Assembly: GCF_000737325.1 (NCBI RefSeq)
Contig: NZ_CP011125.1
Span: 6,882,001-6,946,000, forward strand
Length of the DNA stretch: 64,000 nucleotides
Source: Sandaracinus amylolyticus
GTDB lineage: Bacteria > Myxococcota_A > Polyangia > Polyangiales > Sandaracinaceae
Direction of reading: 5' to 3'
Part shown: piece after piece, positions 3,753 to 19,663 of the stretch
How positions within the stretch are numbered: position 1 is the stretch's first letter
How the letters are laid out: every line of letters starts with the position of its first letter
Position numbers and translations under genes: made by a program
Notes under the pieces: model-generated
Seen by the model: only the letters and a program-made list of their open reading frames with translations
Databases searched by the model: none
Told to the model about the DNA's origin: nothing

Positions 3753-3794
3753 TCTCGCGCGAGCGCGTGAGTCGATTCGTGTGGAGGGCGGGTG

Positions 3795-4139
3795 ATGCGA
3801 CGCGGTCTGTTCGATCGTCTCGAGTCCGGTGCTCGTCAGATCGGCGAGGCGGAGTCGATCGTCGCCCACCTCCACGCGCTCCTCAACGCGCGCGGCATCG
3901 TCGACTTGACGGATCTCGTGCACACGCTGCCCGACGGCATGCGTAGCGTGGAGCTCACGATCAAGAAGGCGATCGAGAGCCACGAGCCGCGGCTCGCGCA
4001 GGTGAGCGTCCGACACCTGCCCGGCGACGACGCGCTGCGGCTCGATTTCCAGGTGCAAGCGCGCCTCGCGGCCGATCCGCGGCGCGCGCTGCGCCTGCGC
4101 ACGTGGGTGCGACTCCCCGGTCGCTTCCGCGTCGATTGA
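3795..4139 (+). CDS. tssE: TssE, T6SS baseplate protein (gp25-like)
   Basis: Baseplate wedge protein related to phage T4 gp25, needed to start sheath assembly. The 114-residue product starts RRGLFDRLE, a normal TssE opening, and contains the gp25 pattern IVAHLHALLNAR, DLVHTLPDGMRSVELTIKKAIESHEPRL and a C-terminal strand region (ALRLDFQVQARL). I chose ATG 3795; the GTG just before it would add one residue. A GGAGGG ribosome site lies at about 3784. The family's EPRL segment is present. Confidence 0.9.
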   Translation: MRRGLFDRLESGARQIGEAESIVAHLHALLNARGIVDLTDLVHTLPDGMRSVELTIKKAIESHEPRLAQVSVRHLPGDDALRLDFQVQARLAADPRRALRLRTWVRLPGRFRVD

Positions 4140-4164: not shown

Positions 4165-5913
4165 GTGTTCTCTCGTTATTACCAGAGCGAGCTCGCCTAT
4201 CTGCGCGACATGGGTCGCGAGTTCGGGCTTCGTCACCCCGGGCTCGCCGAAGCGCTCACCGAGCGCGGCACCGACCCCGACGTCGAGCGATTGCTCGAGG
4301 GCTTCGCGTTCCTCGCCGCGCGGATTCGCGAGCGCACCGAGGCCGCGGTGCCCGAGCTCGCGGAGCCGCTCGCCGAGCTGATCGCGCCGCACACGCTGCG
4401 CGGGATTCCCGCGGCGACGATCCTCGAGCTGGAGCCACGCGCCGGTGCACTGCGTGCACGACACGAGATCAAGGCCGGTGCGATCTACGGATCACGTGCG
4501 GTGCAGGGCACGGCGTGCCCGTTCCAGACGCGCGCCGACGTCGCGCTCACGCCCGCGCGCATCGAGGTGACGCGGCTCGACGAGATGCGCGCCGACGCGC
4601 CCGAGATCGTCGCGCGGATCCGTATCCCCGAGGCGGCGCGCGATGCGGTGCTCGGCCCGGCCCCGCTGCGCCTCTTCCTCCACGGCACGCACGCCCTCGC
4701 GACCACGCTGCTGCTGTGGATCGCGCGCCATCTCGATCAGATCTCGATCCGCCTGGCGCCCGGCGACGAGATCCACCTCGGCGCATCGGCCGCGCGACTG
4801 CCCGCGCTCGACGGAACGATCGGAGATCTCTGGCCGTGGCCCGAGACCGCACCGATCGGACCGCGGCTCGCCGCCGAGTACTTCACGTTCCCCGAGAAGT
4901 TCTTCTTCGTCGACGTGCACGGCCTCGAGCGTGTGCCCAGCGCACGAGCGCGCGAGACGCTCGAGCTCGTCTTCCGGTTCCGCAAGCCGCCTGCGCTTCC
5001 CGAGCGACTGCCCACCGACGCGCTGCGCCTGCACTGCGTGCCCGCGATCAACCTCTTCACCACGTCTGCCGAGCCGATCCGCCGCGCGCCGCTGCGCGAA
5101 GAGCTGCATCTCCGTGCATCCGGTCTCGCTCCACACCAGGCGGAGGTCCACACGGTCGATCGCGTGATCGGCCGGCGCATGCGGCGTGGTGGCGAGATCC
5201 ACTACGGCGCGCTCTCGCTCTTCGATCACGGTCGCGGTGGCGCACACGACGCGTTCTTCACGTTGCGGCGCCGCCGCTCTCCGCTCGACGGCGGCCTCGA
5301 CGCCTACTTGCTGCTCGGCGACGACGGAGCGCCGGATGACGGTCTGGTCGACGAGACCGTCTCGGTCGAGATGACGTGCACGAGCCGCCTGCTCGCGTCC
5401 GAGCTCCGCGCTGGCGACGTCGGCGCACCGCTCCCCGCGTCACCGACGCTCGCCACCGCACGGAACGTGAGCCGCGTGTCGAAGCCGATCCCCGCGGCGC
5501 TCGGCACCGAGCTGCAGTGGCGACTGCTCGGCTATCTCGCGAGCACTCATCGATCGCTCGCGAGCCCCGACGCGCTGCGGAGCCTGCTGTCCTCGTTCAA
5601 CGTGCCCGAGCTCGTCGACGTGCACATCGAGCGCGCGAACTCGCTCCGTCTCGAAGGCATTCGCGAGGTGCGCGCCCACGCCGCGACGCGCGCACATCGC
5701 GGCGCGGTGGTGCGCGGGGTCGAGACGCGCGTCGAGCTCGAGGAGTCGCGCTTCTCGGGGCCCGGTGACGCGTTCCTCTTCGGGTGCGCGCTCGATCGAC
5801 TGCTCTCCGCCGAGGTCCCGATCAACGCGTTCTGCGCGCTCTCGGTCGGCCTGCATCCGTCGATGAAGGAGCTCACGTGGACGCCGCGGACGGGCACGCA
5901 GTCGATCCTCTGA
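4165..5913 (+). CDS. tssF: TssF, T6SS baseplate protein (VasA/ImpG)
   Basis: A core T6SS baseplate wedge component that pairs with TssG. The 582-residue protein opens with the hallmark YYQSELAYLRDMGREFGLRHP and continues with DPDVERLLEGFAFLAARIRERT, then PELAEPLAELIAPHTLRGIPAATILEL, all typical of TssF; the length matches the family. GTG start with AAGGAGA eight bases upstream. Its 3' end overlaps the start of tssG by 37 bases, implying translational coupling of the two wedge subunits. Confidence 0.93.
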   Translation: MFSRYYQSELAYLRDMGREFGLRHPGLAEALTERGTDPDVERLLEGFAFLAARIRERTEAAVPELAEPLAELIAPHTLRGIPAATILELEPRAGALRARHEIKAGAIYGSRAVQGTACPFQTRADVALTPARIEVTRLDEMRADAPEIVARIRIPEAARDAVLGPAPLRLFLHGTHALATTLLLWIARHLDQISIRLAPGDEIHLGASAARLPALDGTIGDLWPWPETAPIGPRLAAEYFTFPEKFFFVDVHGLERVPSARARETLELVFRFRKPPALPERLPTDALRLHCVPAINLFTTSAEPIRRAPLREELHLRASGLAPHQAEVHTVDRVIGRRMRRGGEIHYGALSLFDHGRGGAHDAFFTLRRRRSPLDGGLDAYLLLGDDGAPDDGLVDETVSVEMTCTSRLLASELRAGDVGAPLPASPTLATARNVSRVSKPIPAALGTELQWRLLGYLASTHRSLASPDALRSLLSSFNVPELVDVHIERANSLRLEGIREVRAHAATRAHRGAVVRGVETRVELEESRFSGPGDAFLFGCALDRLLSAEVPINAFCALSVGLHPSMKELTWTPRTGTQSIL

Positions 5914-6866
5914 GCGCGCTGCACGGCGCGCTCGCGACCTCGGGTCGTCGCGCTTCGTTCTTCGCGCTCGTCGCCGCGCTCGAGCGACGCCTCGGCAGCG
6001 CGGCGCTCGGCACGGAGGCGCGGCCCGCAGACGAACGAGTGCGGCTGGGCCACAGCCCCGCGCTCACCTTCGCGGCGAGTGATGTGTCGAACGTCGCGCT
6101 CGACGGTGACCGCGCGCGCGTCGAGAGCACGTTCCTCGGCACGGCGGGCACGATCGGTCCGCTCCCGCTCTTCATGCTCGAGGAGATCGCGGCCGAGGAT
6201 CCCGATCGCGCGGTCCGCCGCGATCTGCTCGACGTGTTCCACCATCGCGCGCTCTCGCTGCTCTATCGCAGCGTGCAGCGCCTCCGCCCGAGCGCGGTCC
6301 TGCGCGACGACGGCTCGGACTTCTGGAGCCGACGTCTCGTCGCCGCGGCGGGCGCCGACGCGAGCGCGCTGACGATGCCCGAGCGCATCGCGATCCTCCC
6401 GCTGCTCGCGACGAGCCGTCGCAGCGCGCTCGGCTTCCAGCGCGCGCTGCAGATCCTGGTGCGCCGTCGCGTGCCGGCAGCGCGCCTGGTGATCGAGATC
6501 CGCGAGCTCGCCGGTGATCGCGTCCCGATCGCCGAGCGGAGCCGCATGCGCCTCGGTCGCTCGTCGCACGCGCTCGGTCGCGAGACCGTGCTCGGCGCGA
6601 ACGCCGCGGATCCGGGCGGGCGCTGCGTCGTGGTGATCCGCGGGCTCGACGCGACGACGCACCCTCGGTGTCTGCCGGGCGGTGATCTCCACGCGCTCGC
6701 GCGCGAGACGTTCCGCCTCTTCGATCCCGCGGGCATCGAGCTCGAGCTCGAGCTGCACGTCGACGCGCAGCGCAGCGGGTTCCCGCTCTCGCACACCACC
6801 GGCCTCGGCCACCGCACGTGGCTCGCGAGCGCACGCACGTCGCGCACGGTGCGCGTGGCCGCGTGA
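5877..6866 (+). CDS. tssG: TssG, T6SS baseplate protein (VasB/ImpH)
   Basis: The wedge partner of TssF. I place the start at GTG 5877, inside the end of tssF, because AAGGAG at about 5865 is correctly spaced and the product (329 residues) then opens with SALHGALATSGRRASFFALVAALERRLG, the normal TssG start. Family features further on are VRLGHSPALTFAASDVS, the FLGTAGTIGPLPLFMLEEI segment (usually written GLxGxxGPLP) and FLDVFHHRALSLLYR-like helix (LLDVFHHRALSLLYR here). An in-frame start at 5784 lies fully within tssF and is unlikely. Confidence 0.9.
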   Translation: MDAADGHAVDPLSALHGALATSGRRASFFALVAALERRLGSAALGTEARPADERVRLGHSPALTFAASDVSNVALDGDRARVESTFLGTAGTIGPLPLFMLEEIAAEDPDRAVRRDLLDVFHHRALSLLYRSVQRLRPSAVLRDDGSDFWSRRLVAAAGADASALTMPERIAILPLLATSRRSALGFQRALQILVRRRVPAARLVIEIRELAGDRVPIAERSRMRLGRSSHALGRETVLGANAADPGGRCVVVIRGLDATTHPRCLPGGDLHALARETFRLFDPAGIELELELHVDAQRSGFPLSHTTGLGHRTWLASARTSRTVRVAA

Positions 6867-6872
6867 TTTCCG

Positions 6873-6901
6873 ACGCAACGAGATCGCCGCGCGATCGATG
6901 A
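6873..6901 (+). promoter_or_regulatory. T6SS-type bipartite promoter element upstream of clpV
   Basis: ACGCAAC at 6873-6879, 16-base spacer, CGATGA at 6896-6901, in the 56-base gap between tssG and clpV and only 21 bases before the ATG. Confidence 0.6.
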
Positions 6902-6922
6902 CGCGGCTCAGGAGACAACCCC

Positions 6923-9577
6923 ATGCGAGTGCACCCCCAGAAGGTCGTCGCGCGCCTGACGCCGACCGCGAAGCGATACCTCGAGCAAGCCGTCGGCAAG
7001 GCGGTCGAGGCACAACATCCCGAGATCATGCCCGAGCACGTGCTCCTCGCGATGAGCGCCGAGCACGGCGGCGACACCGAGGTGCTGTTGCGCGCGCTGG
7101 ATCGTGATCCGCGCAAGCTGCGCAGCGAGCTCGAGCAGTCCCTGCGCACGTTCCGCGCGGGCAGCGCGTCGAAGCCGCGCATCTCCGACTCGCTGGTGCG
7201 CTGGCTCGAGGACGCGTGGGTGCTCGCGTCGCTCGAGTGGGGCGAGACCGCGCTGCGCTCGGGCGCGCTGCTCGCGCAGATCGTGCTCGGCGGTGGACGC
7301 TATCTCTCGGAGACCGTCGCCACGCTGAGCGGCATCTCGACCGACGCGCTTCGCGCGTGCGCATCCGACGCGCTGAGCATCACGCCGGAGTCGACCGAGG
7401 CCGTCCCTGCACGCACGAGCGAGCGGGCGGCGAGCGATCCGCGCGTCGAAGGCGCGCCGGGCCCGGGGAGCGCGCTTTCGCGGTTCACGCACAGCTTCAC
7501 GGATGCCGCGCGCGCGGGGCGCATCGACCCGGTGTTCGGCCGCGAGCGCGAGATCCGTCAGGTGATCGACGTGCTCTGCCGTCGCCGCAAGAACAACCCG
7601 ATCCTCGTGGGCGAGCCGGGCGTCGGGAAGACGGCGCTCGTCGAAGGGCTCGCGCGCGCGATCGTCGCGGGTGAGGTGCCCGAGTCACTGCGCACCGTCG
7701 ATCTGCGCGGCCTGGATCTCGGGTCGCTCGAGGCGGGCGCGAGCGTGAAGGGCGAGTTCGAGGCGCGCCTCAAGAGCGTGATCCACGAGGTGCAGACCTC
7801 CACCACGCCGATCGTGCTCTTCATCGACGAGGCGCACACGCTCATCGGTGCGGGCAACCAGAAGGGCGGCGCCGACGCGGCGAACCTGCTCAAGCCGGCG
7901 CTCGCGCGCGGTGAGCTGCGCACCATCGCGGCGACGACGTGGGCCGAGTACAAGCAGTACTTCGAGAAGGACGCCGCGCTCGAGCGTCGGTTCCAGCCGA
8001 TCAAGGTCGAAGAGCCCAGCGAGGACGTCGCGATCGGGATGGTGCGCGGGCTCCGCACGATCTACGAGGACGCGCACGACGTGATCATCCGCGACGAAGC
8101 GGTGGAGGCCGCGGTGCGCCTCGGGCATCGCTACATCACGGGCCGTCAGCTCCCGGACAAGTCGGTCGATCTCCTCGACACCACTGCGGCACGCGTGCGC
8201 GTGGAGCGCAGCGCGCGTCCCGAGAAGATCGTCGCGCTCGACGCGGAGATCGCGTCCACGACGCGCCGGAAGGAAGCGATCGCGCGCGACCTCGTCGATC
8301 ACCACGATGCACAGCGCGCGACCGAGCTCATCCAGCTGCAGCGCCGCATCTCGGAGCTCGAGGGAGCGCGCTCGGAGCTGATGGCGCGCTGGGCGGCACA
8401 GCGCGAGGCCCTCGAGCGCGCGTTGGGCGCGCGACGCGCGATGCACGAGGCGGCGAACGAGGCGGACGACGGCGACCGGGAGGCGGCGGACCGCATCGAC
8501 GCGCTCGAGTCCGATGCGAAGCAGGCGATGCACGCCCTGCGCGCGCTGTGTGCGAGCGAGCCGCTGGTCGCGATCGACGTCGACGCCGCGGCGATCGCGC
8601 GCACCGTCGAGCTCTGGACCGGAGTGCCCGTCGGCGCGATGCAGAGCGCGACGAGCCAGGCCGTGCTCACGCTGGGTGAGCGCCTGCGCACGCGCGTGCT
8701 CGGTCAGGACGCCGCGCTCGATCGCGTCGCCGCGTCGCTGCGCGTCGCGCAGGCGGGGCTGCGCAACCCCGACGCGCCGATGGGCGTGCTCCTCCTCGTC
8801 GGCCCGAGCGGCGTGGGCAAGACGGAGACCGCGTACGCGATCGCCGATCTGCTCTTCGGCGGCTCGCGGTTCCTCACGACGATCAACCTCAGCGAGTACC
8901 AGGAGCCGCACACCGCGACGCGCCTCATCGGCTCGCCGCCGAGCTACGTCGGGTACGGAGAAGGCGGCGAGCTCAGCGAGGCCGTGCGCCAGCGGCCGTA
9001 CTCGGTCGTGCTCCTCGACGAGTGCGAGAAGGCCGCGCTCGAGGTGATGAACACCTTCTACCAGGTGTTCGACAAGGGCGTGCTCAGCGACGCCGAGGGA
9101 CGACAGATCGACTTCCGCAACACCTGCATCCTGCTCACGAGCAATCTCGCGTCGGATCGCGTCGTCGAGCTCTACGCGCAGGGCAAGTCGATCGACGAGG
9201 TCACGGAGGCGATCCGCCCGGCGCTCGCGAGGCACTTCAAGCCCGCGCTGCTCAACCGCATGACCGTCGTGCCGTACGCGCCGATCGGCGAGAGCACGCT
9301 CGGCCGCATCGTCGACATCGAGCTCGCGCGCGTCGCCACGCGGGTTCGCTCGGCGCACGACGTGGAGGTCTCCTTCGCCGCCGCAGTGCGCGATCGCGTC
9401 GTCGCGCGCTGCAGCGAGATCGAGGGCGGAGTGCGCTACGTGCGCCAGATGCTCGAGCGCGCGGTGCTCGTGCCGCTCGCGACCGAGCTGCTCGTCGCGC
9501 GCGGCGACGGCGCGGACCTCACCCACGTCGACGTCGCGATCGCCGAGTCCGGCGACGTGTCGATCACCACGCGCTGA
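6923..9577 (+). CDS. clpV: ClpV (TssH), T6SS sheath-recycling AAA+ ATPase
   Basis: Disassembles contracted TssBC sheaths for reuse. The 884-residue double AAA+ protein has a Clp N domain (HPEIMPEHVLLAMSAEH near residues 32-48), a first ATPase with Walker A GEPGVGKT at about 230-237 and Walker B VLFIDEAHTLIGAG, a coiled middle region of about residues 420-530, and a second ATPase with GPSGVGKTE at about 627 and VVLLDECEKA. It starts LTPTAKRYLEQAV, as ClpV proteins rather than ClpB do, and sits in the T6SS cluster. The TTG/GTG alternatives are not needed; ATG 6923 follows GGAGACAACC. Confidence 0.95.
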   Translation: MRVHPQKVVARLTPTAKRYLEQAVGKAVEAQHPEIMPEHVLLAMSAEHGGDTEVLLRALDRDPRKLRSELEQSLRTFRAGSASKPRISDSLVRWLEDAWVLASLEWGETALRSGALLAQIVLGGGRYLSETVATLSGISTDALRACASDALSITPESTEAVPARTSERAASDPRVEGAPGPGSALSRFTHSFTDAARAGRIDPVFGREREIRQVIDVLCRRRKNNPILVGEPGVGKTALVEGLARAIVAGEVPESLRTVDLRGLDLGSLEAGASVKGEFEARLKSVIHEVQTSTTPIVLFIDEAHTLIGAGNQKGGADAANLLKPALARGELRTIAATTWAEYKQYFEKDAALERRFQPIKVEEPSEDVAIGMVRGLRTIYEDAHDVIIRDEAVEAAVRLGHRYITGRQLPDKSVDLLDTTAARVRVERSARPEKIVALDAEIASTTRRKEAIARDLVDHHDAQRATELIQLQRRISELEGARSELMARWAAQREALERALGARRAMHEAANEADDGDREAADRIDALESDAKQAMHALRALCASEPLVAIDVDAAAIARTVELWTGVPVGAMQSATSQAVLTLGERLRTRVLGQDAALDRVAASLRVAQAGLRNPDAPMGVLLLVGPSGVGKTETAYAIADLLFGGSRFLTTINLSEYQEPHTATRLIGSPPSYVGYGEGGELSEAVRQRPYSVVLLDECEKAALEVMNTFYQVFDKGVLSDAEGRQIDFRNTCILLTSNLASDRVVELYAQGKSIDEVTEAIRPALARHFKPALLNRMTVVPYAPIGESTLGRIVDIELARVATRVRSAHDVEVSFAAAVRDRVVARCSEIEGGVRYVRQMLERAVLVPLATELLVARGDGADLTHVDVAIAESGDVSITTR

Positions 9578-9588
9578 GGAGCGACGTC

Positions 9589-10899
9589 ATGGAGCTCCGC
9601 GTCGCCATCCACGACCCGCGCACCGGCGTCGACGAAGAGGCGTTCTTCCGCATCTCGCCGATCCGCATCGGGCGCAACGCGCTCAACGACCTGCTCCTCG
9701 ACGAGCCGAGCGTCTCGCAGTGGCACGCGCAGCTCGCGTTCGACGAGCACCACGTCTGGTTCACCGACGTCGGCTCGTCGAACGGCAGCGTCGTCGACAT
9801 GCAGCGCGTCGCGGCGCACCACGCGGTCGCGGTGCACGCGGAGACGCGTGTCGAGGTCGGCCCCGTGGTCCTCCGGGTGAGCCGCGCGGCCGATGGCGAG
9901 CGCCGCTCGCGGCGCGTCGCGATGGGCGGTGCGATGCCCGACGATCTGCGCACTGCGATCTCGATGATCGACGTCACGCGCATCAGCGGCGACGACCTCG
10001 CGACCGAGGGCGTCGGCAACGATGCGCAGACGGCGCTGGCCAGCAGCGCGATGAGCCAGCTGCAGTACCTGCGGACGCTTCTCGCCGCAGTGGAGCCTGC
10101 GCGACGGGCCTACCTCGAGGTGCTCGCGGATCAGATCGAGAGCCTGCCGTCCGCATCGCGCCAGAAGATCATCCCGCAGCTCGCGCGCGAGCTCCCCGAG
10201 CTCTCGCGATTGCCGGAGTACGTCGAGATCGCGGCGCGACACGGCGTCGACGGCATGAGCGTCAAGGAGGTCACCGCGCGCGAGTGGCTCGAGAAGCTCG
10301 CGGGTGTCCCGCTCACCGGCCCGCACGGCGAGGACGTCGATGATGCGCGCGTCCTCGCGCGCGTCGCCGCGCTGCTGCAGACGTTCGCGCAGTCGCTGTT
10401 CGAGCTGATGCGGGCGAAGGAGCACGTCGCGCGCGAGCTCGGGCTCGGCAGCGGCGACGGAGTGCCGCAGTCGGGTCAGGAGATCCTCGCGTATCTCTGC
10501 GACTTCCGCGTGGACGGCGAAGAGCGCGTCGGCGCGCTGACGCGGGTCTTCGCAGATCTCGCGATGCACCAGATCGCGATGGTGAGCGCGACGCGAGAGG
10601 GCGTGCGCTCGTTGATCGAAGAGATCTCACCGCAGGCCGTCGGCGCGCGCGCGAAGGGCGGAGGACTGCTCGATCTGCTGCCCCTGCGCGGCGCGAGCCT
10701 CTGGGACCTCTACACGCGCGTGCACGCGGATCTCGCCGAGGGCGACCGGTTCGCGCGTCACGTCTTCGGCGCGCGGTTCAGCCGCGCGTACCTCGCGATC
10801 ACGGGACGGCGCGCGCAACAGCGCGATGCGGCGCCCCCTCCGCCGCCGCCGACGACGGTGCCGGAGCAGCAGTCGATCCCGGTCACGCGCATCCGATGA
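9589..10899 (+). CDS. tagH: FHA-domain T6SS regulator/scaffold (TagH/Fha, ImpI-like)
   Basis: Phosphothreonine-binding protein of the T6SS post-translational switch. The N-terminal FHA domain (about residues 1-95) keeps IRIGRNALNDLLL, the SVSQWHAQL loop and DVGSSNGSVV, which bind phosphothreonine in the family. After a linker comes a helical C-terminal region (about 240-420) typical of TagH/VasC proteins (VLARVAALLQTFAQSLFELMRAKEHVARELGLG; YLCDFRVDGEERVGALTRVFADLAMHQIAMV). ATG 9589 follows a GAGGA site at the clpV stop. It fits as the reader of the divergent kinase's phosphorylation. Confidence 0.9.
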   Translation: MELRVAIHDPRTGVDEEAFFRISPIRIGRNALNDLLLDEPSVSQWHAQLAFDEHHVWFTDVGSSNGSVVDMQRVAAHHAVAVHAETRVEVGPVVLRVSRAADGERRSRRVAMGGAMPDDLRTAISMIDVTRISGDDLATEGVGNDAQTALASSAMSQLQYLRTLLAAVEPARRAYLEVLADQIESLPSASRQKIIPQLARELPELSRLPEYVEIAARHGVDGMSVKEVTAREWLEKLAGVPLTGPHGEDVDDARVLARVAALLQTFAQSLFELMRAKEHVARELGLGSGDGVPQSGQEILAYLCDFRVDGEERVGALTRVFADLAMHQIAMVSATREGVRSLIEEISPQAVGARAKGGGLLDLLPLRGASLWDLYTRVHADLAEGDRFARHVFGARFSRAYLAITGRRAQQRDAAPPPPPPTTVPEQQSIPVTRIR

Positions 10900-11858
10900 G
10901 GCACGCGATGGCGCCGCGCGTCGCGATGATGGTCCTGATGCTCGGCGCGCTCGCAGCGTGCGAAGCACCGATGCGTCCACTTCCGACGACGGTGTGCCAC
11001 GAGGCGCGCCGCGCGGCGCCGAGCGCCGGCGGCGAGTCGATCGAGGTGCCCGAGCCGACCGACGCGGAGTGGATCGCGCTGCTCACCGACGACGAAGAAG
11101 GGCGTCCTTCGTCGTGCGAAGAGCTGCTCGCTCGCACGCCGCCGCAAGAGCCGCAGTGCGCGAGCGACCGACCGCGCGCGCTCGGCACGCTGCACCCGAT
11201 CGCGCCCCGCATCGTCGCGCGCCTGCACCGCGAGGGCGAGGACGACGTGCTCTGGGTCGCGACGCACACGACGGCCGCGGGGCTCCACGTCGGCCCGCTC
11301 GCGCTCGTGCGTCGCACCACGCTCGGCCTCGAGGTGCAGGCGATCGGTCGTCACGCGGGCTCCGCGGACCACGCGGAGGCGCGCGTGCTGCGGACCGACG
11401 ACGCGATCGTGGTGTCGATCGAGAGCGAGCTCGCGGGCGATCGCGTCGCCGATCTGCTCGTGCGCTCCGGAGGCGCGCTGGTCCCCGCGGCGCTCGACGA
11501 GCCCGAGGTCGGATGCCAGGCGCCCGCGCGCATCGTCCTGCGCCACCGCGCCGAGCAGCACGCCGACGACGGCTGGACCATCCGCACCGTGCGCACCGCG
11601 GTGCTCGACGAGGACCCACACGCGGTCGTCCTGCGCGAGCACCTCACCGTGCGCGAGATCGACGCCGCCGATCCCGATGCACCGCCGCGCGCCACGCACG
11701 ACGCCGACGGGATTCGCCGGCTCACGCCGACGGGCGTCCGCCTCCGCGCCGATCGCGGCCCCCTCGCGCCCCGCCGCGCGAGCCCCGCGCGGGGCGAGAT
11801 CGTCGCACGCGCACGTCGCATCGCTGAGCACGCAACGCGCGCCGACGTCGCTCGATGA
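10896..11858 (+). CDS. T6SS-cluster lipoprotein, unknown function
   Basis: The 320-residue product has a clear lipoprotein signal (MVLMLGALAAC, lipidated C22), so it should be anchored in an envelope membrane. The rest has no domain I recognise; it is rich in Arg/Asp/His and beta-like segments and contains several cysteines (for example SSCEELLA and PQCASDRP). Its ATG overlaps the tagH stop (ATGA), so it is part of the same transcript. Its 3' end carries the promoter element of the next gene. Possibly an envelope accessory of this T6SS lineage. Confidence 0.7.
   Translation: MRHAMAPRVAMMVLMLGALAACEAPMRPLPTTVCHEARRAAPSAGGESIEVPEPTDAEWIALLTDDEEGRPSSCEELLARTPPQEPQCASDRPRALGTLHPIAPRIVARLHREGEDDVLWVATHTTAAGLHVGPLALVRRTTLGLEVQAIGRHAGSADHAEARVLRTDDAIVVSIESELAGDRVADLLVRSGGALVPAALDEPEVGCQAPARIVLRHRAEQHADDGWTIRTVRTAVLDEDPHAVVLREHLTVREIDAADPDAPPRATHDADGIRRLTPTGVRLRADRGPLAPRRASPARGEIVARARRIAEHATRADVAR
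11830..11858 (+). promoter_or_regulatory. T6SS-type bipartite promoter element upstream of the lysozyme-like gene
   Basis: ACGCAAC at 11830-11836, 16-base spacer, CGATGA at 11853-11858. The box overlaps the stop of the lipoprotein gene, and its ATG is the first in-frame start of the next gene. If this is a -10 box, that ATG lies upstream of the transcript start and the true start must be further down (GTG 11900 or ATG 11912). Confidence 0.6.
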
Positions 11859-11899
11859 GCACCTCGGCGCGACGACGAGCGCGCGAGGACGGACGAGCG

Positions 11900-13330
11900 G
11901 TGACGCTGCGGATGAGCTCCATGATCGTGATCGCGTGCGCGTCGCTCGGCGCCATCGTGCTCGGCGCCGGGCTCGGGGTGATGCTCGAGCCCTGGGCGCC
12001 CGCGTGGGACGTGCCCGCGGCCGAGCCGGAGCCGGAGCAGGAGCCCGAGTTCGACGTGCGCGCCGATCTCGACGACGAGGCCTGGGATGCGCCGCGCGAT
12101 CTCCCGAACGCGCTCGTCGCGGCGGAGCTCGAGGCCGAGCGATACGTCGCGGTCGGAAACGCCCCCGGACGCCGCGCAGCCGCAGCAGACGGAGTCGCGC
12201 CCGTGCCGGAGGCCCCGCGCGAAGAGGGCCTGCTCGGCACGATCACCGACGCACGCCTCGGCGGTGAGGACCGTGACGCGTTCTACCTCGCGGTCGACGC
12301 GAACCGACGCGCCGAGTCGGGCACCGCCGGCGCGCGCTTCTCGTCGCTGCGCACGACCGCGGGCGTCGATCACCGTGCGTCGTACGGCGTCGCGCAGCTC
12401 ACCATCCGCGATCACCTCTTCCACCTCTCGCGCCTGACCGACGCGCAGCTCGCGGAGATCGGCATCGGACGGCTCGAGATCGGGCTCATGCAGCGGCGCG
12501 GCGAGGCCCTCGGCGCGTGGTACGAGATCGTCGTCGAGCGTCGCGCCGCGAGCGACACCGCGTCGCGTGCGGGCCTCGACGCGGCGCAGGTGCGCGACGC
12601 GCAGACGCTCGCGGCGAGCGGCGATCGCCGCGCGTTGATCGCGCGCCACGGCCGCCGTTTCGCGGGCTCCACCGGCCTGCCGGCGGAGGCGCTCGCCGAG
12701 CTCGCCGACACGCTCGTGCTGCGCCGTCGCGAGGTGCGCGACGCGTTCCTCCGCCGCTACGAGCGCGACCACGGCATCGGGTTCGATCGCGCCTCGCGCG
12801 AAGGCGCGCGCATGACTACGACGGCGCGCGCGATCGCACGCGAGCGGCCCGACGTGCAGCGCGTGCTCGAGCGCTTCGGTGGTGGGGACGCGGGCGCGGT
12901 CTCGCTCGCGCACTATCTCGGCGTCGGCGACGTCGCCGAGAACTACTACGGCTGGTACGCCCGCGCGGCGGCCGAGTCGGTGGGTCGCGTGCGCTACGCG
13001 CGCGTGCTCGAGATCGCCGACCCGATCAGCTCGCGTCTGCGTGAGCTCTCGAACTTCGAGCACGCGCTCGCCGCCGTGATCGGCGTGCGCGATCTCGCCG
13101 GGATCGAGCGCGCGCGCATGCTCGCGCGCATCGGGCGCTGCTTCCACGGCGCGCCCGGTCGCGCCCGCGACGCGTTCTTCTTCGACGGAGATCCGCGCCG
13201 CCCGCGCGCGACCAGCGCCGCCGAGCTCGAGGCCGGCATCCAGGAGTACCGCCTCGGACGTCAGTGGTCCGACGAGCGTGTGCAGCGAGCGTTCGACGAG
13301 CTCGCCGCAGAAAGGGGATTGCTCCCGTGA
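11900..13330 (+). CDS. Membrane-anchored lysozyme/transglycosylase-like protein of the T6SS cluster
   Basis: The 476-residue product (from GTG 11900) has one N-terminal membrane anchor (MIVIACASLGAIVLGAGLGV), an acidic Pro/Glu linker and a large periplasmic domain. Within it E139 (in RRAESG) is followed by SYGVAQLT at 161-168. That is the pattern of lysozyme-fold lytic transglycosylases, in which a catalytic glutamate precedes a G-x-x-Q-L motif. This would fit a peptidoglycan-opening enzyme that makes room for the TssJLM channel, as the unrelated MltE and TagX do elsewhere. The assignment rests on this motif alone. I prefer GTG 11900 (GGAC/GAGGA upstream) over ATG 11855, which lies inside the promoter element. 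The GTGA end overlaps tssJ. Confidence 0.5.
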   Translation: MTLRMSSMIVIACASLGAIVLGAGLGVMLEPWAPAWDVPAAEPEPEQEPEFDVRADLDDEAWDAPRDLPNALVAAELEAERYVAVGNAPGRRAAAADGVAPVPEAPREEGLLGTITDARLGGEDRDAFYLAVDANRRAESGTAGARFSSLRTTAGVDHRASYGVAQLTIRDHLFHLSRLTDAQLAEIGIGRLEIGLMQRRGEALGAWYEIVVERRAASDTASRAGLDAAQVRDAQTLAASGDRRALIARHGRRFAGSTGLPAEALAELADTLVLRRREVRDAFLRRYERDHGIGFDRASREGARMTTTARAIARERPDVQRVLERFGGGDAGAVSLAHYLGVGDVAENYYGWYARAAAESVGRVRYARVLEIADPISSRLRELSNFEHALAAVIGVRDLAGIERARMLARIGRCFHGAPGRARDAFFFDGDPRRPRATSAAELEAGIQEYRLGRQWSDERVQRAFDELAAERGLLP

Positions 13331-13878
13331 CACGACCCGCGATCCACGTCCTCACGCTGCTCGCGCTGGGTTGCGCGAGCACGCCCGAGCCGCGCCCGGA
13401 CTGCGGCGATCCCGCACCCATCGCGCTCACGATCGAGGCGACGCCGCGCATGAACCCCGACGCCGAGGGTCGCGCGCTGCCGACCGAGCTGCGCCTCTAT
13501 CAGGTGCGCGACGCGAGCGCGCTCGAGATGGCGTCCTTCGAAGACGTCTGGCAGGACGCCGCGACGGTGCTCGGCGACGCGCTCGTCTCCGAAGAGACGC
13601 TCACCGTCTACCCCGAGGCCCGCCTGACGCGCGAGCTGCATCCGTCGCCGGAGGCGCAGGCGATCGTCGCGGTCGTGATCGTGAGGCAGCCCGCGGGACG
13701 CACCTGGCGCGCGGTCGTGCCGATGACGCGCAGCGAACGGTCGGAGGAGAGCTGTCCCGCGCTCGAGCCGGGCCGTCTCCTCCTCCGCCTCGACGACTAC
13801 CGCGTCGAGGCGATCACGCCTCGCCGCAGCACGCCTCGTCGCACCACGTCACGCCGAACCACGGAGACCCGCGGATGA
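13327..13878 (+). CDS. tssJ: TssJ, T6SS outer-membrane lipoprotein (SciN)
   Basis: Outer-membrane anchor of the TssJLM envelope complex; it binds the periplasmic tip of TssM. From GTG 13327 the 183-residue product has a short lipoprotein signal (VLTLLALGC, C16) and the TssJ beta-sandwich pattern: IALTIEATPRMNPDAEGRALP, TELRLYQVRDASALEMASFEDVW and a late VVIVRQPAGRTWRAVVPM. The overlap with the preceding stop (GTGA) and the ATGA overlap with tssK show tight coupling. The arginine/threonine-rich tail is probably disordered. Confidence 0.88.
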   Translation: MTRPAIHVLTLLALGCASTPEPRPDCGDPAPIALTIEATPRMNPDAEGRALPTELRLYQVRDASALEMASFEDVWQDAATVLGDALVSEETLTVYPEARLTRELHPSPEAQAIVAVVIVRQPAGRTWRAVVPMTRSERSEESCPALEPGRLLLRLDDYRVEAITPRRSTPRRTTSRRTTETRG

Positions 13879-15257
13879 ACCGCTCGACGCAGCTCAAGGT
13901 GCTCTGGACCGAGGGCCTTCTCATGGGGCCCCAGCACCTCCAACAGTCCGACCGCTATCACGAGTCGCTCGTCGTGCAGCGCCTCGATGCGCTCGAGCCG
14001 AACAACTGGGGCGTGGTGCGCTGCGCGCTCGATCGCCACGCGCTCGGCGAGGGGACCGTGCGGCTCGACGCGTTCGTCGGCGTGATGCCCGACGGCGGCG
14101 TGCTCGCGATGGACGCCGATCACCCCGAGGCCCCGCCGTCGCGCCCGGTGGAAGGGCTGAGCGCAGAGCGCGCGACGCTCGACGTGTACGTCGCGCTGCC
14201 GCGCGAGCGCGAAGGTCAGGCCCAGGTCGGCGCGCGTGCCCGCTACACCGCGCACGCGCGGCGCATCGCGGACGTGATCACCTCGGGCGGCGAGCCCGCC
14301 GAGGTCGACCTCGCGCTGCGCAACGTGCGCTTCGTCTTCGGGCACGAGCCGCGCGAGGATCTCGAGGCGATCAAGATCGCCGAGGTCCGCCGCGAGTCGC
14401 AGGGACGCTACGTGCTCGACGAGAGCTACGTGCCGCCCTCGCTGCAGATCGGCGCGTCGCCCGTCCTCACCGCCTGGCTCGAGCGGCTCGTCGAGCGGAT
14501 GCACACGCGACGTCGCGCGCTCCTCGACGCACGGCGCGAGCGCGACGCGCACACCGTCGAGGCCGACGCCACCGACGTGACGCGCTTCGTGCTGCTCCAC
14601 GCGCTCGGTGCCGCCCTCCCCGCGCTGACGCACTTCGCGAAGAGCGGCGATCGCGCGCCGCGCGAGCTCTACGTGCGTCTGCTCGATCTCGTGGGCGCGC
14701 TCTCCGCGTTCACCATCGACGCGTCGCTCGACGTCCCCGAGTTCGATCCGCTCGATCTCCGCGCGACGTTCCGGCCGCTCTTCGACCGTCTGGAGCGCAT
14801 CCTCGGCGACACGCATCGCGAGACCTGTCTCGTGATCGATCTCGAGGGCCGCGAGGACGGCATGCACTTCGGGCAGATCGACGAGCGCGTCGCGCGCTGC
14901 GATCGCTTCCTCCTCGCAGTGCGCACCAGCGTGCCCGCGAAGGACGTCGCGACGCTGCTGCCGTCGATCGGCAAGGTCGCGTCGTGGCAGCAGGTCACGC
15001 AGGTCGTGAACGCCGCGATGCCGGGCGCGAAGCTGGAGATCGCGCACCGCCCTCCCCCCGAGGTGCCGGTCAAGGCGGGCGAGGTCTACTTCACCATCGA
15101 GGCGCGCGGCTCGTACTGGTCGGAGATCGCGAAGGAGCGCGCGATCGCCGTGTTCCTCCCGCGCCCGTTCGAGGCGCGGCACACGCGCGTCTCGCTCCTC
15201 GCGCTTCCCCCGCGCGGCGCGCAGCCCGCGGGGCCTTCCCCCCACGCGCGTGCATGA
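13875..15257 (+). CDS. tssK: TssK, T6SS baseplate-membrane complex connector
   Basis: Trimeric protein joining the baseplate to TssL/TssM. The 460-residue product opens with KVLWTEGLLMGPQHLQQSDRYHE, the defining TssK N-terminus, and ends with the typical ARGSYWSEIAKERAIAVFLP segment. The ATG overlaps the tssJ stop. Length is normal for the family. Confidence 0.93.
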   Translation: MNRSTQLKVLWTEGLLMGPQHLQQSDRYHESLVVQRLDALEPNNWGVVRCALDRHALGEGTVRLDAFVGVMPDGGVLAMDADHPEAPPSRPVEGLSAERATLDVYVALPREREGQAQVGARARYTAHARRIADVITSGGEPAEVDLALRNVRFVFGHEPREDLEAIKIAEVRRESQGRYVLDESYVPPSLQIGASPVLTAWLERLVERMHTRRRALLDARRERDAHTVEADATDVTRFVLLHALGAALPALTHFAKSGDRAPRELYVRLLDLVGALSAFTIDASLDVPEFDPLDLRATFRPLFDRLERILGDTHRETCLVIDLEGREDGMHFGQIDERVARCDRFLLAVRTSVPAKDVATLLPSIGKVASWQQVTQVVNAAMPGAKLEIAHRPPPEVPVKAGEVYFTIEARGSYWSEIAKERAIAVFLPRPFEARHTRVSLLALPPRGAQPAGPSPHARA

Positions 15258-15285
15258 GCACGCGCTCATACCTCGAGGCCCGATC

Positions 15286-15936
15286 ATGAACGAGATTCTC
15301 CCCATCCTCGAAGAGACCCTGCGCCTCGTGCGCTACGTCCGTCAGTGCCCGCCCGGCTCCGCGCTCGACGCGGCGCAGCTGCGCTCGCTCTTCCGCGGCG
15401 CGCTCGGGCGCATGCGCAAGCTCGGCGAGCAACAGAGCATCGACTCGCGCGATCTCGACGAGATCGGCTTCGCGCTCGTCGCGCTGATCGACGAGGTCGT
15501 GCTCGCGCGCGGCGGATCGCTCGCCTACGAGTGGATGCGCGAGCAGCTGCAGCTCTCGCTGTTCGGCGAGAACACGGCGGGCGAGACCTTCTTCGTGAAG
15601 CTCGACGCGCTGCGACGCGACTCGACGCGCGCGCGCGTGCTCGCCGTCTACTACCTCGCGCTGACACTCGGGTTCCGCGGTCGCTACGCGGTGCACGGCG
15701 AGCTCGCGCTCCAGGAGCTCACCGACTCGGTGCGACTCGACCTCGAGCGCTTCGGGGTGATCCGCGAGAGCGCGCTCTCGCCCAGCGGCACGCGCCCGCG
15801 CGACGCGATCGCGCAGCGCACCGAGGGCTGGATCGTCCTGGGCATCGGCGTCGCCGCGCTGCTGCTCGCGTGCGTCTTCTACACCGGCGTGTTCGTCGAC
15901 CTGACGTACCGCATCCACCCGGTCCTCGGCGGCTGA
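15286..15936 (+). CDS. tssL: TssL, T6SS inner-membrane protein (DotU-like, short form)
   Basis: Cytoplasmic hook of the envelope complex. From ATG 15286 the protein has 216 residues with the DotU pattern ILPILEETLRLVRYVRQ, DEIGFALVALIDEVVL, LFGENTAGETFFVKLD and VYYLALTLGFRGRY, then one C-terminal membrane helix (about 182-208). There is no OmpA-type peptidoglycan-binding extension, so wall anchoring must come from another protein. An in-frame GTG at 15250 would add 12 non-conserved residues. Confidence 0.92.
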   Translation: MNEILPILEETLRLVRYVRQCPPGSALDAAQLRSLFRGALGRMRKLGEQQSIDSRDLDEIGFALVALIDEVVLARGGSLAYEWMREQLQLSLFGENTAGETFFVKLDALRRDSTRARVLAVYYLALTLGFRGRYAVHGELALQELTDSVRLDLERFGVIRESALSPSGTRPRDAIAQRTEGWIVLGIGVAALLLACVFYTGVFVDLTYRIHPVLGG

Positions 15937-15956
15937 CGCGCGATCTCGCCGACTCG

Positions 15957-16009: not shown

Positions 16010-19000
16010 ATGCTCGCACTCGTCATCGCGGGGCTTCTCCTCGTGCTCGCCTGGATCGCGGCGTGGCTGCTCGAGCTCCCGCTGTGGATCCCGCTCCTGC
16101 TCACGGTCCTGACGCTGATCGGGATCGCGTTCGTGCTCGTGGTCCGGCGCATCCTCGCGCAGCGGAAGGCCGGACAGATCGAGCGTGCGCTCATGGCCCA
16201 GGCCGCGAGCGCCCAAGACAGCATGCGGCCCGATCTCGCGGCCGAGATCGAGAGCATGACCGCCGAGTTCCACAAGGCGGTCGCAGCGCTCAAGACGTCG
16301 AAGCTGAAGGGCGGCGGCGCCGGCGCGCTCTACGCGCTCCCCTGGTACGTGATCATCGGCCCGCCGGGCGCGGGCAAGAGCACCGCGCTGCGCAACTCGG
16401 GCCTGCCCTTCCCGTACGTGCCGAGCCAGTCGCGCGGCAGCATCAAGGGCATCGGCGGCACGCGCAACTGCGACTGGTGGCTCACCAACGACGCGGTGCT
16501 CCTCGACACGGCGGGCCGCTGGACGACGCAGGAGGACGATCAGGAGTGGTTCGCGTTCCTCGATCTCCTGAAGAGGCACCGCCCGCGTCAGCCGCTCAAT
16601 GGGATCCTCGTCGCGGTCAGCGTCGACGACCTCGTCTCGACCGGCGACGAAGGCCGCGTGGTGCTCGCGGCGCGAGTGCGCGAGCGCATCGACGAGGTGA
16701 TGTCGCGCCTCGGGATCGCGCTGCCGGTGTACGTGCTCGTCACGAAGTGCGATCTCGTGCCCGGGTTCGTCGAGACGTTCGCCGAGCTGCCGCGCTCGGA
16801 GCGCGGTCAGCTCTGGGGCTACACCCTGCCGTTCCGCGAGCTCGGGCTCGAGCTCGCGCCCACCGTCGACGCACGGTTCGCGGAGCTCGTGCAGAGCGCG
16901 CGGCAGCGGGTGATGACGCGCATCGGCCACGAGCGACGCCTCGAGACGCGCGAGCTCATGGCGGGCTTCCCGAGCCAGCTCGCGACGCTCGGAGAGCCGC
17001 TCACGCACTTCCTCGTCGAGCTCTTTCAGCCGAACGTGTACCGCCAGTCGCCGGTGCTGCGCGGCACGTACTTCACGAGCGGCACGCAGGAGGGCACGCC
17101 GATCGATCGCCTGCTGGGCCGTCTCGCGGAGGCCGCGAACCTGCCGTCGCACCTCGCGCTCCCGGAGCCGGTGCTCGAGCCGAAGAGCTACTTCCTCACC
17201 AAGGTCTTCTTCGACGTCCTCTTCCCCGACGCGAAGCTGGTCGCGCCGACCGAGCTCAGCGCGCGACGTCGCCAGATCGTGCAGGTCGCGTCGGGCCTCG
17301 CGCTCTGCGCGACGGCCGGGCTCGCGCTCGTGGGCAGCGCGGTCTCGTGGCGCCTCAACCGCGAGATGGTGCGCGACACCGCGCAGCTGCTGCGCGCCGT
17401 CGGCGAGAGCACGAAGGACGGCGAGGCGCTCGCAGCGCCGCTCGCGCCGAGCACGCTCGAGGCACTGCGCGGGCGCGCCGACGAGCTGCGGTCCTACGAC
17501 GCCGCGGGTCCGCCGTGGTTGATGCGCCTCGGGCTCTACAGCGGCGGGCCGCTCGTGCAGCCGACGACGCAGGCGTACGCGCGCGCGATGCGCGAGGGTG
17601 TCGTCGCGCCGCTCGTGCGTCGCGAAGCCAGCGCGCTCGACACGTGGGGACGTCGCTTCGAGCAGGAGCTCGATGCGCAACCGAGCGCGGAGGAGCACCA
17701 GCGCTTCTACGCCGCGCTCGAGCGGCACCTGCGCCTCACGATGCCGCGCGCTGCGGACGAGCCCGCGACGAGCGACGTCGATCGTGATCGGCTCGTCGAT
17801 GCGCTCGCCGCGCTCTGGGCCGAGTCGAGCAGCGCGGCGCGCGACGCGGACGGCGCGATGCTCGCGCGTCACGCGCGCTTCTATCTCGAGCTCGCGTCAG
17901 AGAGCCCCGCCCTCTACGTGACGCGCGACGACGACGCGGTGCGCCGCGCGCGCCTCGCGCTCTCGCGCTTGCCTGCGAGCCAGGTCGCGCTCGCCGAGCT
18001 GGTGCGCGAGACCGAGGGTCGCGGATACGACCTCACGCTGCAGCGCCTCATCGGCGCGACCGGCGCGGCGCTCAGCGCGCGCGCCCACGTGCGCGGTGCG
18101 TTCACCCGGCGGGCGTGGGAGGAGCACATCCGCCAGCGCATCGACGATGCCGGCGCACGCCGCGCGGGTGCGGCGTGGGTGCTCGGTCCGATCCACGGCG
18201 ACGCCGACGAGCGGAGCCGCGCGATGCGCGACGAGCTCCGCGCCCAGTACTTCGAGGCGTACGTGCACGAGTGGCAGCAGTTCGTGCGAGGCCTGCGCAC
18301 CAAGACCGCGCACGACGAGACCGAGGCGCTCGCGCTGCTCGAGGACCTCACGCGTGGCAGTCCCGCGCCGCTCGGCCGCTTGGTCGCCGCGATCGATCAC
18401 AACCTCCAGCTCGTCGAGCCGGAGCCGCCTCCCGCGACGAACGGTGCCGCGCAGGGCCTGCTCGCCTCGCTCGAACAGACCGTACGTGGCCGCGTCGGCA
18501 ACCAGGCGGTCGACGCCGCGCGCGACACGCTCACCGACGCCTCGCCCACGCCGCCGGCCGCGCGCCTCACCGGCGACTCCGTCCGCAGCGCGTTCGAGGG
18601 GCTCGTGCAGTTCGGCGTCGCGCCGCCGGTCGAAAGCGGCACGCCGCCGCCGGTCGGGCTGGACGTCTATCAGGAGCAGCTCGTGTTCCTCCGCGACGCG
18701 CTCGCGACGCATCGCGACGACCCGTCGACCGGCGCCCAGCTCGTCTCGCGCTTGCAGACCGCGCGCACCCGCGTGCAGGCGCTGATTGCCGAGCAGCCGG
18801 TCGGGTGGCGTCCCTTCTTCGAGCAGCTGCTCTGGCCGCCGATCGATGGCGCAGCGACGACGTCCAGCGAGTCGATGGCGGGCTCGACCGCGCGCGCCTG
18901 GTGCTCGTCGGTCGCGGTGCCGTTCTTCTCCACGCTCGCCGGGCGGTATCCGTTCGCGCCGGCGGGCCACGACACCGCGATCGCCGACTTCGCGGCGTTC

Positions 19001-19663
19001 TATCGCCCGGCGAGCGGAACCGTCTGGACCTTCTACGAGCAGTCGCTCACGTCGCAGGTCGAGCGCGACGGCGCGCGCTACGTGTTCGCGACTCGCCTCG
19101 GGCGCGACGCGGGCAGCGTGTATCGCAGCACGCTGCCGCTCTTCCTCGAGCGCAGCCAGACGATCACGAGCGCGTTCTTCCCGCCGGGCGCGACCGATCC
19201 GCGCGTCGAGATGGACGTGCGCGTGCACCCCGTGCCGGGCGCGGCGTCGGTTCGCTTCGCGTCGGGCGGAACGCTCATCGACTATCGCAACGGCCCGGAG
19301 AGCTGGACGCGCGTGGTGTGGCCCGGCGAGCGGCCCGACGCGGGCGCGTCGATCGAGGTACTCGGCGCGAACGGCCTGCAGGAGCGCGTGCGCCAGGAGG
19401 GCGAGTGGGGACTCTTCCGCCTGATGGAGCGCGCCGCGCGCATCGGCGGCGGTGGGCCCGGTGCGCGCACGTTCACCGTGACGTGGCACCTGCCCGGCCA
19501 CGATCTCGACGTGACGATCGACGTCCGTCTGGTGCGCGCGGAGAACCCGTTCTTCGCGCCGGACGATCGTCAGGGACGCGTGCTCGGTCCGATGCGCGCG
19601 GTGGGCGTCCAGGCGCCGCGCGTGATCACCGCGCGTGACGGCGAGTGCACGGTCGGCGGCTGA
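16010..19663 (+). CDS. tssM: TssM, T6SS inner-membrane channel protein (IcmF)
   Basis: The main envelope-spanning protein linking TssL to TssJ. Of its 1217 residues, about 1-55 hold two membrane helices and about 100-400 the cytoplasmic NTPase domain, with Walker A GPPGAGKS at 117-124 and DTAGRW further on. A third membrane helix follows (ASGLALCATAGLALVGSAVSW, about 425-447), then a long periplasmic part with the IcmF-related middle region and a C-terminal beta domain (TFTVTWHLPGHDLDVTIDVRL). Walker A is intact, which is not true of all TssM proteins. ATG 16010 follows GGAAGGACGACACCG. Confidence 0.95.
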   Translation: MLALVIAGLLLVLAWIAAWLLELPLWIPLLLTVLTLIGIAFVLVVRRILAQRKAGQIERALMAQAASAQDSMRPDLAAEIESMTAEFHKAVAALKTSKLKGGGAGALYALPWYVIIGPPGAGKSTALRNSGLPFPYVPSQSRGSIKGIGGTRNCDWWLTNDAVLLDTAGRWTTQEDDQEWFAFLDLLKRHRPRQPLNGILVAVSVDDLVSTGDEGRVVLAARVRERIDEVMSRLGIALPVYVLVTKCDLVPGFVETFAELPRSERGQLWGYTLPFRELGLELAPTVDARFAELVQSARQRVMTRIGHERRLETRELMAGFPSQLATLGEPLTHFLVELFQPNVYRQSPVLRGTYFTSGTQEGTPIDRLLGRLAEAANLPSHLALPEPVLEPKSYFLTKVFFDVLFPDAKLVAPTELSARRRQIVQVASGLALCATAGLALVGSAVSWRLNREMVRDTAQLLRAVGESTKDGEALAAPLAPSTLEALRGRADELRSYDAAGPPWLMRLGLYSGGPLVQPTTQAYARAMREGVVAPLVRREASALDTWGRRFEQELDAQPSAEEHQRFYAALERHLRLTMPRAADEPATSDVDRDRLVDALAALWAESSSAARDADGAMLARHARFYLELASESPALYVTRDDDAVRRARLALSRLPASQVALAELVRETEGRGYDLTLQRLIGATGAALSARAHVRGAFTRRAWEEHIRQRIDDAGARRAGAAWVLGPIHGDADERSRAMRDELRAQYFEAYVHEWQQFVRGLRTKTAHDETEALALLEDLTRGSPAPLGRLVAAIDHNLQLVEPEPPPATNGAAQGLLASLEQTVRGRVGNQAVDAARDTLTDASPTPPAARLTGDSVRSAFEGLVQFGVAPPVESGTPPPVGLDVYQEQLVFLRDALATHRDDPSTGAQLVSRLQTARTRVQALIAEQPVGWRPFFEQLLWPPIDGAATTSSESMAGSTARAWCSSVAVPFFSTLAGRYPFAPAGHDTAIADFAAFYRPASGTVWTFYEQSLTSQVERDGARYVFATRLGRDAGSVYRSTLPLFLERSQTITSAFFPPGATDPRVEMDVRVHPVPGAASVRFASGGTLIDYRNGPESWTRVVWPGERPDAGASIEVLGANGLQERVRQEGEWGLFRLMERAARIGGGGPGARTFTVTWHLPGHDLDVTIDVRLVRAENPFFAPDDRQGRVLGPMRAVGVQAPRVITARDGECTVGG

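Follow-up and report, generated by a model that had tools for sequence, protein, structure and literature searches.

A gene that stands directly ahead of tssJ in a T6SS cluster of Sandaracinus amylolyticus raises the question of whether this cluster encodes its own enzyme for opening the producer's cell wall to the TssJLM membrane complex. The cluster lies in a stretch of 64,000 nucleotides (here called the window), and an earlier note on this DNA had described the product of the gene as a membrane-anchored protein with a lysozyme-type active-site pattern, proposed as a wall-opening or anchoring factor for TssJLM. The predicted models and gene context described below suggest that this previously unnamed enzyme-like protein probably cleaves the cell wall, and most likely does so to give passage to the base of the bacterium's own T6SS. 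No report of the family, which is named here for its predicted lysozyme fold, was found in the open-access literature.

The T6SS Cluster and its Promoter-like Element

The genes of the cluster follow one another in the order hcp, tssE, tssF, tssG, clpV, FHA, lipoprotein, lysozyme-fold gene, tssJ, tssK, tssL, tssM, tssA, tssB, tssC, vgrG, and rhs. The features most relevant to the gene and its surroundings are the following (genomes used for comparison carry G numbers).

3792-4139, tssE (gp25-type baseplate protein), a separate gene (PF04965)
9589..10899, + strand, T6SS FHA protein (PF20232, PF00498)
10896..11858, + strand, lipoprotein accompanying the FHA gene; homologues adjoin FHA in G125 and G319
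11829..11857, + strand, promoter-like element CACGCAAC-N16-CGATG with an ECF-sigma-type layout, recurring before other T6SS genes
11855..13330, + strand, gene of the predicted lysozyme-fold protein, 491 aa from ATG 11855 (longest frame); gc3-gc2 0.35; four homologues
13327..13878, + strand, tssJ, 4 bp overlap with the preceding gene (PF12790, 4.7e-23)
13875..15257, + strand, tssK (PF05936, 1.7e-108)
15250..15936, + strand, tssL, 228 aa, without a peptidoglycan-binding domain (PF09850, 7.4e-37)
16010..19663, + strand, tssM, preceded at 15956 by a promoter-like element of its own (PF14331, PF06761, PF06744)

Coupling of the gene to tssJ, as the earlier note had described it, is borne out by the GTGA overlap at 13327-13330 and by the assignment of TssJ to PF12790. 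The same arrangement, with tssJ directly after the lysozyme-fold gene, occurs in the window, G421 and G125 (4-bp overlap) and likewise in G168, thus in three genera; in the other T6SS clusters examined no homologue of the gene was found ahead of tssJ.

The gene also has, as previously claimed, its own copy of an element that recurs with small variation ahead of hcp, clpV, tssM, tssB, vgrG, and rhs. Exact or one-mismatch copies are located on the + strand before hcp (3147), clpV (6872), the lysozyme-fold gene (11829), tssM (15956), tssB (22198), vgrG (24815), and rhs (29963). With at most one mismatch, the complete genome (10.3 Mb) contains 34 sites vs 5 for the reversed pattern, and seven copies fall within 27 kb of the window. 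Judged from its letters, the arrangement in two blocks is like that of an ECF-sigma promoter. The element is conserved in G421, where it is intergenic and located behind the lipoprotein gene and a T-run hairpin of unexceptional folding energy, the sequence just upstream having diverged. In G149 and G420, which are without the lysozyme-fold gene, the element stands directly before tssJ, at the start of its reading frame. The lysozyme-fold gene thus stands with a T6SS promoter on one side and tssJ on the other, and the linkage of the protein to the T6SS is supported by both operon position and a common promoter-like element.

Provided that transcription begins just past this element, an alternative start at GTG 11900, which gives a protein of 476 aa, is the likelier start of the gene. 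Residues E139 and SYGVAQLT 161-168 counted from GTG 11900 correspond to E154 and 176-183 counted from ATG 11855.

The lipoprotein encoded upstream (10896-11858) has no Pfam match and may represent a T6SS accessory lipoprotein family. The FHA-linked lipoprotein is also present in G319, a genome without the lysozyme-fold gene; the window lipoprotein is T6SS-associated and not specific to the lysozyme-fold gene. It was considered and rejected as an immunity protein because its relatives accompany FHA even where the lysozyme-fold gene is missing. A protein kinase-like gene (1179-3062, - strand; GAYEIEKRLGAGGMAEVFLA) is located beside the cluster with its FHA protein, suggesting possible control of the T6SS by threonine phosphorylation. 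At the other end, the Rhs protein encoded after vgrG (30043-33693) shows a weak C-terminal match to Ntox46 (6.3e-5, below the cut-off) and is likely a T6SS cargo effector. A true SLT-domain protein (PF01464, 5.3e-28) is encoded at 38154-38501 on the - strand, ~4.5 kb past the rhs gene.

The Putative Active Site and its Conservation

The encoded protein comprises an N-terminal hydrophobic segment, followed by an acidic Pro-rich linker and a predicted catalytic region.

11924..11980, + strand, single N-terminal hydrophobic segment, aa 24-42, membrane anchor or long signal sequence (Kyte-Doolittle mean 2.36)
12257..13327, + strand, predicted lysozyme-fold catalytic domain and extra helical lobe, aa 135-491 (AlphaFold pLDDT 86.5; homologue 84.3)
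12314..12316, + strand, putative catalytic Glu codon, E139/E154, invariant in the homologue alignment
12380..12403, + strand, SYGVAQLT motif (GxxQ; possible GLMQ equivalent), from the homologue alignment

The description of the product as membrane-anchored agrees with the one N-terminal hydrophobic segment found (Kyte-Doolittle 2.36), and the positions given before for E139 and SYGVAQLT are exact when translation begins at GTG 11900. In its loose form, E followed 8-30 residues on by GxxQ[LIVM], the pattern turns up in 27% of sequences shuffled from the same residues and is, by itself, weak evidence, while a fuller pattern, ES..[YFW]GxxQ[LIVM][TMPD], appears in 0.025% of shuffles. Conservation across homologues settles the matter at the level of sequence. 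The ES and GxxQ motifs are present in the window protein and its homologues, and none of the five family members, the window protein included (31-90% identity), departs from E-S or from A-S-[YF]-G-x-[GA]-Q-L-T. The putative catalytic Glu, for which the earlier note had regarded loss in homologues as fatal, is retained by every homologue in the five-sequence alignment. Of the 57 invariant columns, 14 lie in residues 149-183, and no other stretch of 35 residues is as dense (hypergeometric p 4e-4).

The spacing from Glu to Gln is 24-27 residues in this family vs ~18 in the SLT domains compared. The AYN motif as such is absent; HYLG or AEN may be equivalent, HYLG being missing in G022. No second acid is conserved between Glu and Gln (D172 is missing from G168 and G022), which would fit a single-Glu, lytic-transglycosylase-like mechanism. 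One acid suffices for lytic transglycosylases.

Predicted Fold

Sequence-based searches retrieved nothing credible for the catalytic region in Pfam, NCBIfam, PHROGs, PADLOC, or PDB sequences. The SLT profile (PF01464/GH23) matched no family member, hhalign comparisons with the SLT domains of the same genome and with GH46 were negative, and Pfam gave no match to the GH46 chitosanase profile PF01374 or, in the window protein, to the VanY/LAS peptidase domain.

AlphaFold models were obtained for the window domain (pLDDT 86.5, pTM 0.82) and for the G125 homologue (pLDDT 84.3, pTM 0.83); both are confident except in the active-site loop, where confidence is lowest. Foldseek returned nothing significant for either model, and its matches to transporters and pore toxins (TM about 0.1) were set aside. 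Structural comparison gave best matches that include lysozyme-superfamily enzymes, clear for the G125 model and weaker for the window model; the other outcome that the earlier note had named as fatal, a fold unrelated to lysozyme, thus did not emerge. The best match of the G125 model is the catalytic domain of Pseudomonas aeruginosa Slt (6fbt, residues 481-628) with Z 7.6 over 140 aligned residues at 3.8 A, a value that falls short of the tool's own level for safe matches, and the runner-up structure reaches only Z 3.9. For the window model, the top-ranking structures include a GH80 chitosanase (Z 5.5 over 193 residues) and the catalytic domain of LtgA (Z 5.0 over 113 residues); these matches tie with cyclins (helical bundles) and are weaker than that of the G125 model. 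In both models the putative catalytic Glu is located in the last turn of the second helix (helix 16-34 and 18-36, respectively). The catalytic Glu of Slt likewise ends the second helix. The fold match is of moderate strength, and on these models a lysozyme-superfamily fold is likely, although not proven.

Distribution of the Family

Searches of the order and phylum identified four relatives: G421, from the same genus (90% identity), G168 (47%), G125 (40%), and G022 (31%). Three of them were recovered in the genome-contig scan, all three from Myxococcota MAGs, and the G168 protein is incomplete, being cut by a contig end. TssK occurs in 90 of the 183 genomes of the order and the lysozyme-fold gene in only 4 of these 90; the family is rare and patchy. 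Searches of phages, plasmids, and viral contigs yielded no homologues. Two weak matches from distant Myxococcota (L101 and L102) were discarded as Arg-/His-rich frames that look like wrong-strand translations.

The single N-terminal hydrophobic segment is also present in the G421 protein. The N-terminus of the G125 and G022 proteins is instead a PG_binding_1 domain, with no transmembrane segment or signal peptide. The G125 gene lies head-to-head with hcp, with tssJ on its other side and no room for an immunity gene. The G022 genome has no TssK, which indicates that the family is not restricted to T6SS; its homologue is encoded on the opposite strand among atp (ATP synthase) genes, and a lipoprotein gene without a family match overlaps its 3' end. 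At this homologue (L019, 5308 and 5361-7858) a similar element, GCAAC-N16-CGATA, was observed, with the overlapping lipoprotein gene behind.

Candidate Functions

The explanation favored here, with a probability of roughly one in two, is that the protein is anchored in the membrane and cuts glycan strands, opening the wall of the producer so that TssJLM can assemble, in a role like that of TagX or MltE. It would be a glycan-strand-cleaving enzyme of the lytic-transglycosylase or muramidase type, with a single catalytic Glu, and would constitute a new sequence family within the lysozyme superfamily. An inner-membrane anchor would hold it with the catalytic domain in the periplasm, co-production with TssJ-K-L would be driven from the T6SS promoter, and local loosening of the producer's cell wall would allow the TssJLM complex to assemble across it. 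The PG_binding_1 domain of two homologues, the invariant motif, the Slt match, the weaker GH80 and LtgA matches, the Glu at the end of the second helix, the position before tssJ, and the promoter-like element in front of the gene count for this reading, as do the lack of an immunity-gene candidate in G125 and the FHA linkage of the window lipoprotein. Against it count the G125 and G022 proteins, which, having neither transmembrane segment nor signal peptide, would lack a Sec route into their own periplasm, the occurrence of the family in the TssK-less G022, the absence of the gene from 86 of the 90 T6SS-bearing genomes of the order, the missing profile relation to SLT or GH46, the null Foldseek result, a Z of 7.6 that is under the safe level, and the low-confidence active-site loop. 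The original proposal of a wall-opening or anchoring factor gains from the fold, the conserved Glu, and the T6SS linkage, and loses the argument drawn from TssL (see below). A more specific version, that of a dedicated T6SS enzyme derived from an endolysin-like family in which the PG-binding domain was swapped for a membrane anchor and the gene set between a T6SS promoter and tssJ, is tentative, with somewhat less than an even chance.

The main rival, rather unlikely but kept in play by the relatives in G125 and G022 that carry no export signal, is an antibacterial T6SS effector: a muramidase delivered to the prey periplasm and encoded beside its firing machine. The endolysin-like build of these relatives (PG_binding_1 plus lysozyme-fold domain) and the head-to-head position of the G125 gene with hcp are in keeping with such a role, and the lipoprotein gene overlapping the homologue in G022 might encode an immunity protein. 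Many T6SS effectors have a lysozyme fold (PMC12135965), and PseM, a T6SS muramidase with a signal, is on record (PMC12494544). However, G022 is without TssK, G125 offers no adjoining immunity-gene candidate, and the window lipoprotein goes with FHA, also in a genome without the lysozyme-fold gene; moreover, the hydrophobic N-terminus and the contiguity with tssJKL suit a part of the machine, and the WHxxxH motif is missing from the window protein.

Less probable still is a non-catalytic lysozyme-fold protein that binds peptidoglycan and anchors TssJLM, replacing TagL/TagP or the TssL peptidoglycan-binding domain. The lack of that domain in TssL, for which the earlier note had the protein compensate, would agree with such an anchor, as would the non-conservation of a second acid near the motif (G168 and G022 have no D172). 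The compensation argument does not hold, since an equally short, DotU-only TssL is encoded in the G149 cluster, which has no lysozyme-fold gene; the invariance of the putative catalytic Glu across 31-47% identity and the sufficiency of a single acid in lytic transglycosylases also argue against an anchor devoid of activity.

The weakest explanation is a passenger gene of cell-wall or endolysin-like type that entered the T6SS operon but serves some housekeeping or lytic purpose unconnected with it, presumably as in G022. It would account for the rare and patchy family and for a T6SS-less genome in which the homologue runs opposite to the atp genes around it, but is improbable given that the position before tssJ is constant in three genera and that G421 keeps 90% identity and the promoter-like element though the sequence just upstream diverged.

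Comparison with Known Systems

TagX, the T6SS peptidoglycan hydrolase of Acinetobacter, has been proposed to open the producer's wall (PMC5061870). The window protein resembles it in being membrane-anchored and encoded in a T6SS cluster, with a C-terminal enzyme domain predicted to be periplasmic and kinship of the phage endolysin type. In contrast, TagX is a VanY/LAS-type L,D-endopeptidase that cuts peptide stems and has two transmembrane segments, whereas the window protein has a single anchor, a predicted lysozyme fold, and predicted glycan-strand cutting. MltE, used for TssJLM assembly in the T6SS of EAEC (PMC10433429), is likewise a glycan-strand cutter of the lysozyme superfamily; however, it is a borrowed housekeeping lytic transglycosylase, while the window protein comes from a gene of the T6SS operon itself and does not belong to the SLT family by sequence.

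Slt and the family 1 lytic transglycosylases (PF01464, GH23) share with the window protein the closest predicted fold (by the G125 model), the Glu-Ser ending a helix, and G-x-x-Q, and differ in the lack of a profile match, the Glu-Gln distance (24-27 vs ~18), the absence of AYN, and the large extra helical lobe of the window family. T6SS muramidase effectors (Tse3, PseM, WHIX-type) are similarly muramidase-type and T6SS-linked; unlike these, the window protein matches no solved structure by sequence, has no immunity partner identified and a hydrophobic N-terminus, and is encoded contiguously with tssJKL. The WHIX motif WHxxxH was not found in it, there being no WH dipeptide anywhere in the 491 aa. 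TssE is labelled 'T6SS lysozyme-like' in some older annotation. The likeness is in name only, TssE being a gp25-type baseplate protein.

Implications for T6SS Assembly

How the T6SS membrane complex crosses the cell wall of its producer has been worked out in few cases only. According to a 2023 review, T3SS, T4SS, flagella, and pili usually have a dedicated lytic transglycosylase, and T6SS clusters only by way of exception (PMC10433429). A lysozyme-fold protein tied into the expression of tssJKL would represent such an exception.
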